Notes under the pieces: generated by a model
What the model was told of the DNA's origin: nothing
What the model saw: only the letters and a program-made list of their open reading frames with translations
Database searches by the model: none
Origin: Caldivirga sp.
GTDB lineage: Archaea > Thermoproteota > Thermoprotei > Thermoproteales > Thermocladiaceae
Reading direction: 5' to 3'
NCBI RefSeq assembly: GCF_023256255.1
Contig: NZ_JAGDXD010000045.1
Location: forward strand, 1 to 60,053
Length of the DNA stretch: 60,053 nucleotides
Part shown: positions 24,326-30,471 of the stretch, one piece after another
Numbering within the stretch: the stretch's first letter is position 1
Layout: every line of letters begins with the position of its first letter
Program-made: the position numbers and the translations under genes

Positions 24326-26095
24326 TTAAAGTATGAGGTAAGTGGCTATCACTGATAAGACTATTGGGGCTAGGAATAGTAATGATGCAAGTATTGGCGT
24401 TAAACTGACGGCGCTGGAGGCCGCCTTAACCATACCGTAGAATCCATCTATTCCCACTACGCGTATCCTGCTTGAAACCTCAGTGTAACTAACCTTAACC
24501 ACTGGGGCTTCAGGATTATTGACGGCATTTAGTATTAGCCTTATTAATTCACTTTGGTTAACCCAATCACCAACAACATGGTAACCAACTTTACCGAAGA
24601 AGCCGGTGTACTGGTGATTATCAGTGGTTACTACTTCAGCTAAGTAACCCATTTCCCCTAGCCTCCTCCTAATTTCATTAGCTAGGTCCGGTTTAATGTT
24701 ATTGCCATCAATAACCACTAGAACAGATGATGCGCCATTAAATGCCAGTGTCAGTACGAACACTCCATTATCCCCAATCTCCATGAATGAGCCAGGTACC
24801 TTACTCCTAGGTATATGAACAACCCTTAACCTTAATTCACCCTCAACATCAGGAGTGTTAAGTACTCTTCTTAGTCCATTAATTAAGTCCCGTACATCAT
24901 CATCACTCCAGGAATTATCACTACTGAAGCTGTTCTGTGAATCAATGATTATTAATCTATTAACTTCATTACCCAATTCCTCAGCAACCTTATTGTAAAC
25001 GTAGGTTGGTATGTCATCCATTGACTTCCTTAATCGGGATACTAGGACTAGGTTCTTACCATTGGCTATTGGTAAAACTAGTAGCCTGATATCCCCTGAC
25101 TCCACACGCATGATCGGCTTAGCCTTAATTACCTCACTGTGGTTACTGGACCTAAGCTTAACCATTGCCTCCTTAATGCTGTTGACAATGATCATAGTAT
25201 CATCATACGATGCTGGGTCAGCCTCATGACCGCCAACACCATGCAAATACACTAGTCTCGTCCTCATTGACCTAGCTACCTTAACTAGGATAGGTACTAA
25301 GTCAGCTCCACCCACATGGCTTACTGGCCCTGCATGCATGTAAGGTATAACTATGTATGAGTCATTGCCATTATCCCCAGTTACGTGAACCACATGGATC
25401 TTGACTTCAGAATCCTTGGAAGACCTTAGGAGGTGAAACTCCATGAATGACCCATCACCCGTTATCATAGTGTAGATGAATGCCCCAAACATCTTCAAGT
25501 AGTATAATGTTCCTTTAACCTTATGTATGATTATCATGGAGAGCATTATTAGTATAGACACTACGAAGAGTATTGAGTCAAGTAAAAGAACCCTAGGTAT
25601 GCTTATTGAGTCGTGGGTTAACGTACCTATAATTAGGTAAACAGGTAACTGTATGATTATCACTATAGTGAGTAGTAGCGCAAGGTCCGTTAGGTAGCTT
25701 ACTGTTGGTCTTGATCCAACAGGATCCTTAAGTAGGGATACCATTAATGATAATGGCGCCAGTGAGGCTAAGGCACCAGCCATAACAACTAGTTTACCCT
25801 CAATAATACTCATCGCTGAGTCTATTATTATTGACTCAATCATTACTACCAATACTGTCGTATAATGCATCTTAAATGAACCTACCCCAGTCATTCTCAT
25901 TGTTATTAATGCCAATATCAGTGAAGTTAGGATATAAAATAGTGAAACTAGGAAGGAATAGAGGGGGTTCAACCCTATTCTACTGAGGATTAATAGAGGG
26001 GTAATAATCATTAGCACCAGGCCTATTAACCTAATTAGGCCACCAGCATGAATACCGAAGAGTATCCCATAGCCGCGTTCAAATCTCCTACTCAT
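24326..26095 (-). CDS. DUF2070-family archaeal membrane protein
   Basis: The 589-residue protein has a cluster of about six or seven hydrophobic helices in residues 15-205, a large soluble domain (about 215-540), and one C-terminal helix. Motifs such as VIPYMHAGPVSHVGGADL and YLHGVGGHEADPASYDD fit the uncharacterised archaeal DUF2070 family, whose soluble part has conserved His and Asp residues that could bind metal. Function is unknown. A TATA-like CTTTAAATAA at about 26119-26128 lies close to 26 nt before the ATG, implying a leaderless transcript. Confidence 0.75.
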   Translation of the reverse strand: MSRRFERGYGILFGIHAGGLIRLIGLVLMIITPLLILSRIGLNPLYSFLVSLFYILTSLILALITMRMTGVGSFKMHYTTVLVVMIESIIIDSAMSIIEGKLVVMAGALASLAPLSLMVSLLKDPVGSRPTVSYLTDLALLLTIVIIIQLPVYLIIGTLTHDSISIPRVLLLDSILFVVSILIMLSMIIIHKVKGTLYYLKMFGAFIYTMITGDGSFMEFHLLRSSKDSEVKIHVVHVTGDNGNDSYIVIPYMHAGPVSHVGGADLVPILVKVARSMRTRLVYLHGVGGHEADPASYDDTMIIVNSIKEAMVKLRSSNHSEVIKAKPIMRVESGDIRLLVLPIANGKNLVLVSRLRKSMDDIPTYVYNKVAEELGNEVNRLIIIDSQNSFSSDNSWSDDDVRDLINGLRRVLNTPDVEGELRLRVVHIPRSKVPGSFMEIGDNGVFVLTLAFNGASSVLVVIDGNNIKPDLANEIRRRLGEMGYLAEVVTTDNHQYTGFFGKVGYHVVGDWVNQSELIRLILNAVNNPEAPVVKVSYTEVSSRIRVVGIDGFYGMVKAASSAVSLTPILASLLFLAPIVLSVIATYLIL

Positions 26096-26283
26096 TTAAC
26101 GGTTCACGTAACTGTGAATTATTTAAAGGTATTCACATGGAGAATGAGGCTTCATCGAATCCTCAACCATTAAATGGTTAATGCCTACCACTAGTGAGTG
26201 AAAAACACACCTTTCAGTTGTAGAAGGGCCAAGTCTTAATGAGGCGGTAATCCCGGTATCATACCTTTCATTCAGGGGAGAAA

Positions 26284-26293
26284 AATATAAAAA
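26284..26293 (+). promoter_or_regulatory. TATA-like box for the Cys-rich protein and rpoB operon
   Basis: AATATAAAAA lies about 29 nt before ATG 26318. No comparable box lies between that small gene and rpoB, so it probably drives both. Confidence 0.5.
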
Positions 26294-26317: not shown

Positions 26318-26476
26318 ATGAATAAGGAATGCATTAGGCACTGCGTGGCTGAGTGCTATGATAATGACGTTAGGGTTAATGAGAGTTGCCTCTCAGATTG
26401 CATAGAGGAATGCTTCGTTACCTTACACTCCAAGCCTGCTCCACTGGAGATGAAAGTTTATAAACCTACTCAGTGA
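26318..26476 (+). CDS. Small Cys-rich protein with twin Cx3Cx3C motifs
   Basis: This 52-residue gene is below the usual ORF cut-off. ATG 26318, TGA 26474-26476. Six cysteines are arranged as two matching blocks, C5-C9-C13 and C24-C28-C32, each C-x3-C-x3-C, separated by a short polar linker. That spacing puts the cysteines on one face of two helices, as in a helical hairpin cross-linked by disulfides or a metal centre. I know no named family. It has a well-placed TATA-like box and ends 12 nt before rpoB, so it is probably expressed with the polymerase. Confidence 0.6.
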   Translation: MNKECIRHCVAECYDNDVRVNESCLSDCIEECFVTLHSKPAPLEMKVYKPTQ

Positions 26477-26488
26477 TGATACTGGCTT

Positions 26489-29400
26489 GTGAGTAGTGTT
26501 AGGAGGGATTCTCAAACATCATTACTGCCATTACCGATACTCCGAGCGGAGGATTCAGGAGGATACATAGCAAGTGAGGATAGGTGGACTCTTGTTGAAT
26601 CCTATGTGAGGAGTTACGGGTTGGTTAGGCATCAGATAGATTCATTCAATGACTTCGTGGATAGGAAGCTTAAGGAGATAGTTCAGGAATTCAACATAGA
26701 CTTAGGCGATGTTAAGGTTAAGTTCATTGATGTTGAGGTAGGTAAGCCAAGGTTCAAGGAACCAACTGGAGTGGAGAACGTAATATACCCAATGGAGGCT
26801 AGGTTAAGGAACATAACGTACGCAGCACCCATGAGGCTTAAGGTCATGCTTTACATAAATGGTGAAGAGTACACTGAGACCGTTCCCTTGGGTGATTTAC
26901 CAATAATGGTTAAGTCAAAGTACTGTAATTTATATGGTTTAAAGCCGCAGGCTATAGTTAAGAAGCTTGAGGATCCAAATGACCCAGGCGGCTACTTCAT
27001 AATAAACGGTAGCGAGAGGGTTGTGGTTTCCCAGGAGGATCTTGCCCTTAATAAGCCAATATACGACTACGACGAGAGGGGGGCTACTAGGGTACCTAGG
27101 GCTAAGATAATATCCATGGGTCCAGGCTATAGAACGACAGTTGTTGTTGAGTATCATAAGGATGGGGTGATTTACGTCCAAATACCCAAGATACCCACTA
27201 GGATGCCCTTCCCAGTGGTTATGAGGGCCCTCGGCCTTGAGAAGGACCAGGACATTGCCCTGGCCGTGAGCGATAATGATGAGATTCAGAGGGAGTTACT
27301 TGCATCATTTGAGATGGCTATTCAAATTGCGCCAACTGTTGATGAGGCTAGGGATTACATAGGTAGGAGGATTGTGCTTGGTCACCCTAGGGAAATAAGG
27401 ATTCAGAGGGCCCTTGAGTACCTTGATAAGTACTTCCTCCCCCACTTAGGCACAGTACCTGATGATAAGGTTAGGTTAAGTAAAGCTATTGAACTTGGCC
27501 AGGCAGTAGCTGGGGTTATTGAACTCTACAAAGGTTGGAGGCAGCCTGATGACAAGGACCACATGTCTAATAAGAGGGTTAGGTTGGTTGGTGACTTATT
27601 AGCCCAATTATTCAGATCCATATTCGCTCAGTTTGTTCAAGACCTCAGGAATCAACTGGAGAAGCAGTATTCAAGAGGTAAGATACCTGAATTAAGAACA
27701 ATAGTTAGGGCTGATATAATTAGTGATAGGCTTAAGCATGCGTTATCAACAGGTAATTGGGTTGGTGGGAAGACTGGGGTTACTCAAATGCTTGATAGGA
27801 CTAACTACGTTTCAACAATAAGCCACCTAAGGAGGGTCGTATCATCACTAAGTAGGACTCAACCGCACTTCGAGGCGAGGGATCTTCACCCAACTCAATG
27901 GGGTAGGTTATGCGCCATAGAGACCCCTGAGGGGCAAAACTGTGGGTTGGTTAAGAACATGGCTCTTATGGCGACGGTAACCGTGGGTGTTGATGAAGCC
28001 AGCGTGGAGGCTATGTTAAGGGAAATGGGTGTTATTAATGTGTTGGACGCCAGGAAGAATGAGATTAAGGGGGCTAACGTACTACTCAATGGTAGGCTAA
28101 TAGGTATTCATAGGGATCCGCAGGCGCTTGTGAATGCGATTAGGGAGGCTAGGAGGAGGGGTGACATTAATGGTGAAGTTAACGTTGGTTACATTGAGAA
28201 GCTTAATGAGGTTAGGGTTAACTGTGATGGGGGTAGGTTAAGGAGACCATTATTGATTATAAGTAATGGTAAGTTAAGGTTAACTAAGGAGCATATTGAG
28301 AAGTTGAAGAGCGGGGAGTGGACTTGGGATGACTTAGTTAAGAACGGCATAGTAGAGTACATTGATGCTGATGAGGAGGAGAACGCCATGGTAACCATAG
28401 GTGATGCCAAGGATATTGACTTAAGCAAGTACACTCACATGGAAATTATACCAAGCATAATGCTGGGTGCCGTAGCCCATATAATACCTTACTCTGAGCA
28501 TAATCAATCACCAAGGAACATTTATGAAGCAGCCATGGCTAAGCAATCCCTTGGATTCCCCTACTCCAACTACAGGTATAGGATTGATAGTAGGGGGCAT
28601 TTACTACTCTACCCGGAGAGGCCCTTAGTCACCACTAGGGGTCTTGAGTTAATAGGCTACAGTATGAGGCCATCCGGCCAGAATGCGGTGCTTGCGTTAG
28701 TGTCATTCATGGGTTACAGTATAGAGGATGCAGTTATGATTAATAAGGCAGCCATAGAGAGGGGCATGTTTAGGAGCGTGTTCTATAGGTCCTACGAGAC
28801 CGAGGCCATGAGGTACCCAATGGGTGAGAACGATAGGATAACCATACCGCCACCCACTGTTAGGGATTACAGGGGTGCTGAGGCCTACGCCCATCTTGAT
28901 GAGGATGGTATAGTGCCTCCGGAGGTCTTTGTTTCAAGCAAGGAGGTTTTAATAGGTAAGATAAGTCCACCAAGGTTCTATAGTGCATTGGCGGAGAGTC
29001 AACTAGCCGGTGAGTGGAAGGATAATTCAATAACGGTCAGGAGGGGTGAGAAGGGCATAGTTGACCAGGTCTTAATAACGGAGAGTAGTGAGGGTTTCAA
29101 GTTAATTAAGGTTAAGGTTAGGGAGCTTAGGATACCTGAACTTGGTGACAAGTTTGCCTCAAGGCATGGGCAAAAAGGTGTAGTAGGCATGATAGTGCCA
29201 ATGGAGGACATGCCATTCACTGAGAATGGTATAACGCCAGATGTGGTTATTAATCCGCATGCCTTACCAAGCAGAATGACCATTGGGCAATTACTTGAGG
29301 CTATAGCAGGTAAGACTGCTGCACTATACGGTACGTTGGTTGATGCAACGCCGTTTGAGGGTGTTCCTGAGAATACCATTAGAAGCATGCTGATGAAGGC

Positions 29401-29884
29401 TGGGTACAGGTGGAGTGGTAGGGAGACCATGTACAGTGGATTAATGGGTACCAGGCTGGATGCGGACATATTCATTGGTGTAGTATATTACCAGAAGCTA
29501 CACCATATGGTTGCCGATAAGATACACGCCAGGGCTACTGGGCCAATGCAGATATTGACTAGGCAGCCGACGGAAGGTAGGTCAAGGGAAGGCGGCTTGA
29601 GGCTTGGTGAAATGGAGAGGGATGTTTTAATAGCCCATGGAGCTGCGGCGCTACTTCACGAGAGGATGGTTGAGTCAAGCGATAGGTACGTAATGTACGT
29701 GTGTGAGGACTGTGGTATGATGGCCTGGTGGGATGACTTTAAGAAAAGGCCAATATGCCCAATACATGGTGATAAGGGGAGGATAGCTAAGGTTATTGTC
29801 CCCTACGCCTTCAAGCTACTGCTGCAGGAGTTAATAAGCTTAGGCATATACCCCAGGCTTAAGCTCTCTGAGCCAATAGGATAA
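26489..29884 (+). CDS. rpoB: DNA-directed RNA polymerase subunit B (Rpo2, unsplit)
   Basis: The 1131-residue protein is the single-chain crenarchaeal form, not split into B' and B''. It has GYSIEDAVMINK and the invariant GDKFASRHGQKG of the active-centre region, followed by DVVINPHALPSRMTIGQLLE. A C-terminal zinc site reads CEDCGMMAWWDDF then CPIHGDKG. No intein or truncation is visible. The GTG start at 26489 gives MSSVRRDSQ; it is 12 nt after the small Cys-rich gene. The stop overlaps the methyltransferase ATG (TAATG). rpoA and rpoH are not in the window. Confidence 0.97.
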   Translation: MSSVRRDSQTSLLPLPILRAEDSGGYIASEDRWTLVESYVRSYGLVRHQIDSFNDFVDRKLKEIVQEFNIDLGDVKVKFIDVEVGKPRFKEPTGVENVIYPMEARLRNITYAAPMRLKVMLYINGEEYTETVPLGDLPIMVKSKYCNLYGLKPQAIVKKLEDPNDPGGYFIINGSERVVVSQEDLALNKPIYDYDERGATRVPRAKIISMGPGYRTTVVVEYHKDGVIYVQIPKIPTRMPFPVVMRALGLEKDQDIALAVSDNDEIQRELLASFEMAIQIAPTVDEARDYIGRRIVLGHPREIRIQRALEYLDKYFLPHLGTVPDDKVRLSKAIELGQAVAGVIELYKGWRQPDDKDHMSNKRVRLVGDLLAQLFRSIFAQFVQDLRNQLEKQYSRGKIPELRTIVRADIISDRLKHALSTGNWVGGKTGVTQMLDRTNYVSTISHLRRVVSSLSRTQPHFEARDLHPTQWGRLCAIETPEGQNCGLVKNMALMATVTVGVDEASVEAMLREMGVINVLDARKNEIKGANVLLNGRLIGIHRDPQALVNAIREARRRGDINGEVNVGYIEKLNEVRVNCDGGRLRRPLLIISNGKLRLTKEHIEKLKSGEWTWDDLVKNGIVEYIDADEEENAMVTIGDAKDIDLSKYTHMEIIPSIMLGAVAHIIPYSEHNQSPRNIYEAAMAKQSLGFPYSNYRYRIDSRGHLLLYPERPLVTTRGLELIGYSMRPSGQNAVLALVSFMGYSIEDAVMINKAAIERGMFRSVFYRSYETEAMRYPMGENDRITIPPPTVRDYRGAEAYAHLDEDGIVPPEVFVSSKEVLIGKISPPRFYSALAESQLAGEWKDNSITVRRGEKGIVDQVLITESSEGFKLIKVKVRELRIPELGDKFASRHGQKGVVGMIVPMEDMPFTENGITPDVVINPHALPSRMTIGQLLEAIAGKTAALYGTLVDATPFEGVPENTIRSMLMKAGYRWSGRETMYSGLMGTRLDADIFIGVVYYQKLHHMVADKIHARATGPMQILTRQPTEGRSREGGLRLGEMERDVLIAHGAAALLHERMVESSDRYVMYVCEDCGMMAWWDDFKKRPICPIHGDKGRIAKVIVPYAFKLLLQELISLGIYPRLKLSEPIG

Positions 29885-30471
29885 TGGGCTACTTCCCAAA
29901 CTTCACCTATAGGCCATCTGATGATACTTATCAAACACTTAACGTCACCTTAACTGTACTTAAATTGAGAAGTGGATATGATTACTTCATTGAGATAGGG
30001 AGTGGTTCAGGTTACATAATAACTAATGTAGCTAAGGAGTTCACCTCATTTAGGAGATTCATAGCTACTGACGTTAACTGCACTGCAGTTAAGGAGACCA
30101 CTAGGTACGCTGAGGATGAGGGTGTGGATGTTGATGCAGTATGCTGTAATCTTGCCGATTGCCTAAGGAACATTAGTAATTCAATAATAGTCTTCAATAC
30201 GCCATATTTAACCTGCAGCAATGGCGAGTTAAGCATCAGTGACCCAGCCTATGTGTCAATCTGCAGAAACTACAGGGGTGATGTTTTAACAGGTGTGGTT
30301 AATATTATTAAGACAGGTTGCTGTGAGTTCATACTCACTGTGGGTAATGATGGGTTAGAGTACTTATTGTCATCAATAAGGGGCATTAGGCCATTATACT
30401 TCATTGACGTATTATTCAATAGCCACATGTTTTTTGAGGATGTTATCACCGTGCATTTAACACGCATTTGA
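29884..30471 (+). CDS. HemK2-like class I methyltransferase
   Basis: The 195-residue protein has the SAM-binding motif IEIGSGSGYI (about 36-45) and an adjacent acidic strand ATDVN. Length and layout match archaeal HemK2/Mtq2-type glutamine methyltransferases, which modify release factor aRF1. The catalytic motif IV, normally NPPY, reads NTPY here. The start overlaps the rpoB stop by one base, so it is translationally coupled to the polymerase subunit. Other protein or RNA substrates cannot be excluded. Confidence 0.75.
   Translation: MGYFPNFTYRPSDDTYQTLNVTLTVLKLRSGYDYFIEIGSGSGYIITNVAKEFTSFRRFIATDVNCTAVKETTRYAEDEGVDVDAVCCNLADCLRNISNSIIVFNTPYLTCSNGELSISDPAYVSICRNYRGDVLTGVVNIIKTGCCEFILTVGNDGLEYLLSSIRGIRPLYFIDVLFNSHMFFEDVITVHLTRI

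Follow-up and report, generated by a model that had tools for sequence, protein, structure and literature searches.

Comparative sequence analysis of a 60,053-nt stretch of Caldivirga sp. DNA (contig NZ_JAGDXD010000045.1; hereafter, the window) identifies a forward-strand frame at 26318–26476, immediately upstream of rpoB, as a genuine conserved gene under purifying selection and not a chance frame. Its 52-residue product (MNKECIRHCVAECYDNDVRVNESCLSDCIEECFVTLHSKPAPLEMKVYKPTQ; stop codon TGA at 26474–26476) carries six cysteines, at positions 5, 9 and 13 and at positions 24, 28 and 32. The protein is acidic (pI 5.1, charge −3.4), and no signal peptide is evident on inspection of its N terminus, which begins MNKEC. 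We consider it reasonably probable that this small acidic protein is independently transcribed, that it folds into a helical hairpin held by a disulfide ladder and acts as a docking module, and that its last codons contain the rpoB promoter.

The frame was brought to attention by a first-pass annotation, which described a six-cysteine protein ending 12 nt before rpoB. Both particulars are borne out: the frame is present at full length and is kept in 5/5 Caldivirga genomes, and its TGA precedes the rpoB GTG at 26489 by that distance. Across the six frames of the window the six-cysteine pattern was found once, and none of 60 first-order Markov shuffles contained it. Orthologs were recovered from all five Caldivirga genomes searched, with E values of 1e-21 to 1e-29 and one convincing copy per genome; Caldivirga relatives of the window's assembly that the genome-collection search gave by name are UBA161, MU80 and RSNS23. 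Across the full frame, pairwise dN/dS among the Caldivirga genes is 0.05–0.20, with mostly smaller values in the cysteine core, and variable sites in codons 1–33 are distributed 7/4/19 over codon positions 1/2/3. The sole length change among these copies is 3 nt (one codon), and all six cysteines are invariant (5/5).

A shorter relative is present in a sister genus. Two sister genera enter this analysis, g3 and g4, which we take to be Thermocladium and Vulcanisaeta. All three Thermocladium genomes encode a protein of 37–40 amino acids with identical CX3CX3C-X10-CX3CX3C spacing, so that cysteine conservation, on which the first-pass annotation had staked its proposal, is complete: all six are kept in the Caldivirga and Thermocladium copies. 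An aspartate and a glutamate are also conserved at equivalent sites in the two sets of proteins, and the Thermocladium copies differ from one another mostly at third codon positions. These copies are flanked by a metallo-beta-lactamase-fold gene and an undecaprenyl diphosphate synthase gene and are not near rpoB. Outside the cysteines, 2–3 of 26 residues are identical between the genera, with a BLOSUM score above permutation (p = 0.02). Because the score exceeds permutation but few non-cysteine residues match, we regard homology of the Caldivirga and Thermocladium proteins as likely, not proven.

Profile searches at three taxonomic levels (order, 45 genomes; class, 81; phylum, 398) yielded no further convincing members. 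Vulcanisaeta and the family's remaining genera gave no convincing relative, and none was found among IMG/VR viral contigs or phages. On this sequence evidence, the family is lineage-restricted, comprising the hot-spring archaea Caldivirga and Thermocladium. One Vulcanisaeta-like genome contains a 38-residue twin CX3CX3C frame (MRLLKCQEKCDRKCKTHTEGSEDWWRCYNDCITRCLLG; G023:C9:56088–56201, L069); it is a singleton, with no relative among 25 family genomes, and lies near an apparent tyrosine integrase gene. A distant member of the phylum has a small frame with twin CX3C motifs (YCREKC ... DCIEEC) and no Pfam match (L103; G356:C11, near 24669–24752).

The cysteine core spans residues 5–33 (26330–26416, CX3CX3C-X10-CX3CX3C) and is predicted to form a helical hairpin, as the first-pass annotation had proposed. 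An AlphaFold2 model of a 38-residue core, run on the cysteine core plus three relatives, has helices at residues 3–12 and 22–36 with a mean pLDDT of 82 and a pTM of 0.51, from four close sequences only. In the full-length model, the C-terminal tail is of low confidence (pLDDT 54–57). Foldseek searches of the PDB and of viral structures gave no significant match to the fold and nothing below E 1. In the predicted arrangement, two short antiparallel helices would form the hairpin, each presenting cysteines at i, i+4 and i+8 on one face, and nested pairs C5–C32, C9–C28 and C13–C24 would staple them as a disulfide ladder. By analogy with known hairpins, such stapling is the pairing we favor, at the same reasonable but unproven level as the reading of which it is part.

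Disulfides of this kind are plausible in the cytosol, where the protein probably resides, since a protein disulfide oxidoreductase (PDO) is present, a VKOR-family protein is encoded in the window and many thermophilic archaea form bonds of this type. PDO scores above cut-off in G000, G001, G006 and G007; the VKOR-family disulfide-forming membrane protein lies at 1182–1685 on the reverse strand (PF07884, E 2.8e-23); and intracellular disulfides are common across thermophilic archaea (PMC3177088). A hairpin stapled in this way would be rigid and would probably serve as a module onto which a partner docks. Once reduced, the protein may possibly bind zinc. A broader version of the disulfide reading, which we hold only as a speculative proposal, sees a stand-alone archaeal family of cytosolic disulfide-ladder hairpins acting as redox-switched docking or zinc-exchanging modules, rigid hairpins when oxidized and zinc-bound when reduced, with an essential gene's promoter within the coding sequence. 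If the disulfide ladder is real, the protein would offer a natural, heat-stable scaffold of very small size.

The cysteine arrangement matches a known motif. Plant 6C alpha-hairpinins follow the motif CX3CX3C-X4-20-CX3CX3C, with n = 10 the commonest loop in plants (PMC11591084), and the Caldivirga protein conforms to it exactly (C5 C9 C13 X10 C24 C28 C32). It is small, as are alpha-hairpinins such as Nigellin-1.1 (PDB 2NB2), its predicted helical hairpin would correspond to their helix-loop-helix, and the nested pairing proposed here resembles the C1–C4 and C2–C3 pairs of alpha-hairpinins (PMC7191063). However, plant alpha-hairpinins are defence peptides cut from precursors and are typically positively charged, whereas the archaeal protein is acidic and has no evident signal peptide. 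It gave no sequence match, and the likeness is likely to be convergent. The mitochondrial small Tims (twin CX3C) are likewise helix-loop-helix proteins with nested C1–C4 and C2–C3 disulfides from paired CX3C motifs, and their reduced form binds zinc (PMC3759932), but they have two cysteines per helix instead of three and are eukaryotic intermembrane-space chaperones. The corresponding Pfam family, zf-Tim10_DDP (PF02953), falls far below cut-off (best E 0.98; matched by 2/8 members). The mini-protein would work like alpha-hairpinins and small Tims, by convergence, and archaea and plants have probably evolved the six-cysteine helical hairpin convergently. Haloarchaeal C(P)XCG zinc-finger micro-proteins such as HVO_0758 are also very small, cysteine-containing and archaeal (PMC10716476, PMC11241148); each has a pair of C(P)XCG knuckles, whereas the mini-protein has none and lacks CXXC.

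Two promoters appear to be present at this locus. Upstream, an archaeal TATA/BRE element (AAAAATATAAAAA, 26281–26293, forward strand) places TATAAA at 26286–26291, ~32 nt before the ATG; it is conserved in 5/5 Caldivirga genomes amid otherwise diverged upstream DNA, in agreement with the earlier description of a well-placed promoter. Many starts in the window are preceded, at a distance of about 26–31 nt, by a TATA-like element, as is typical of leaderless transcripts, and we infer that the mini-protein gene is independently transcribed from a promoter of this type. A bacterial sigma-70 scan was uninformative at the locus. At the 3′ end of the gene, the codons of the C-terminal tail EMKVYKPTQ (26447–26473) overlap a second probable promoter. 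A TATA box (TTTATAAA, 26457–26464, with TATAAA at 26459–26464) lies within the tail, centered 27.5 nt before the rpoB GTG, a leaderless spacing like that at other starts.

The 23-nt block around this TATA box (GAGATGAAAGTTTATAAACCTAC) is identical in 5/5 Caldivirga genomes. One of eight degenerate codons varies within the block vs 27 of 42 in the rest of the gene (Fisher p = 0.015), and the tail is missing from the Thermocladium copies, none of which lies before rpoB. In Caldivirga, the silent sites of the tail are frozen as well, and the probable reason is that the tail contains the rpoB TATA box. The simplest reading of these alignments is that EMKVYKPTQ is conserved as promoter DNA, the last codons of the mini-protein gene doubling as the core promoter of rpoB, and rpoB appears to have its own promoter. 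The assignment of the frame to an rpoB operon was not confirmed, given what seems to be a separate TATA box for rpoB within the final codons. This probable TATA box would be a clear example of a core promoter that limits how the end of an adjacent coding sequence can change. It also cautions that a conserved tail need not mean protein function, nor a neighbor a partner.

The position beside rpoB is itself specific to one genus. The mini-protein gene is immediately 5′ of rpoB (26489–29884, forward strand; GTG start, all seven Rpb2 Pfam domains) in 5/5 Caldivirga genomes, and at all five loci the N-terminal part of a divergently oriented gene for a predicted DUF2070 membrane protein lies upstream of it (in the window, 24326–26095, reverse strand; PF09843, E 3.9e-104). 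Conservation upstream of rpoB, proposed earlier as a check, holds in the five Caldivirga genomes but not beyond the genus: at 18 rpoB-start loci of the family's other genera, no six-cysteine frame lies upstream. In Thermocladium and Vulcanisaeta, rpoH is directly 5′ of rpoB. In Caldivirga, rpoH is away from rpoB: it is on another contig in G000 (G000:C51), and in G001 it is far off on the same chromosome, at 1,932,398 (G001:C1:1932398) vs 485,847 for rpoB. Because the adjacency is confined to Caldivirga and rpoH is displaced there, the arrangement is best read, from gene order, as a Caldivirga-specific rearrangement, which carries little information about polymerase function. At the other end of rpoB, a methyltransferase-like frame of 195 amino acids that looks cysteine-rich (29884–30471, forward strand) has an ATG that overlaps the stop codon of rpoB at its final base and is possibly translationally coupled to rpoB.

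Among other explanations, a metal-binding protein is a possible one, if a less probable account than the stapled hairpin. Here, the six thiols would hold zinc (or copper or iron), the hairpin would form round the metal, and the protein would be a metal buffer or a zinc-finger-like adaptor. The six cysteines lie on one face of the predicted hairpin, and reduced small Tims bind one zinc through four cysteines (PMC3759932). The Thermocladium proteins have an odd seventh cysteine beside the first one, which misfits a closed three-disulfide protein and could reflect a metal site or a dimer. Against this account, there are no CXXC or CPXCG knuckles, no metal-handling neighbors were seen, and the cell makes disulfides (PDO, VKOR). 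The first-pass annotation had instead raised as possible a redox- or metal-sensing partner of RNA polymerase, or an assembly factor, co-expressed with rpoB. The sole basis for this was the position immediately 5′ of rpoB in 5/5 Caldivirga genomes, with a 12-nt gap; we reject it as the main reading because that linkage is genus-specific and now think it unlikely. Linkage to polymerase genes does not extend across genera: the Thermocladium copies are elsewhere, none was found in Vulcanisaeta or other genera, the adjacency accompanies the Caldivirga-specific loss of rpoH from the site and rpoB has an apparent promoter of its own.

The same position, together with the conserved tail, could be taken to mark a regulatory leader whose translation through a cysteine-rich frame controls rpoB, the peptide itself being unimportant. 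We reject a leader peptide, giving it hardly any credence, because it is the amino-acid sequence of the cysteine core that is under selection and relatives exist away from rpoB; moreover, a TATA box from which the rpoB mRNA would begin past the frame accounts for the tail. Scarcely more credible is that the gene was drawn from a pool of small cysteine-rich proteins (inhibitors, for example) carried by mobile elements or viruses and was later domesticated. The restriction of the family to one lineage, neighbors that differ between genera and the Vulcanisaeta-like twin CX3CX3C frame near an apparent tyrosine-integrase gene would suit such an origin; however, no IMG/VR viral-contig or phage relative was found, the position is stable inside each genus and the Vulcanisaeta frame is a singleton.

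Neither the gene nor its scaffold is represented in the family libraries searched, but the kind of protein is already known. No match to the mini-protein exceeded the curated cut-off in Pfam, NCBIfam or PHROGs, so that Thermoproteales annotation can now include a family new to all three, and a literature search found no paper describing it. The best Pfam match, TIL, reached E 0.0034 among members and 15.3 bits for the window protein vs a cut-off of 24.5; this match and one to Defensin were set aside as sub-cut-off and cysteine-driven. A PDB hit to the RIG-I zinc domain (E 0.006) weakened with a profile (E 0.05) and was attributed to chance cysteine matching. Weak genome matches in G009:C40, G012:C29, G107, G278, G002:C9 and G057 were rejected as lying within or antisense to other frames or containing stops. 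An order-wide DNA pattern scan gave mostly valine/threonine-rich repeat DNA, with a control pattern about equally frequent; the sensible frames it returned were those of Caldivirga, Thermocladium and the one Vulcanisaeta-like genome only. False matches to cysteine-spacing DNA patterns arise from GTTACTGTTGTT-like repeats, a long example of which lies at G000:C58:5400–5531, with similar loci in other Caldivirga; these repeats probably encode valine/threonine-rich proteins.
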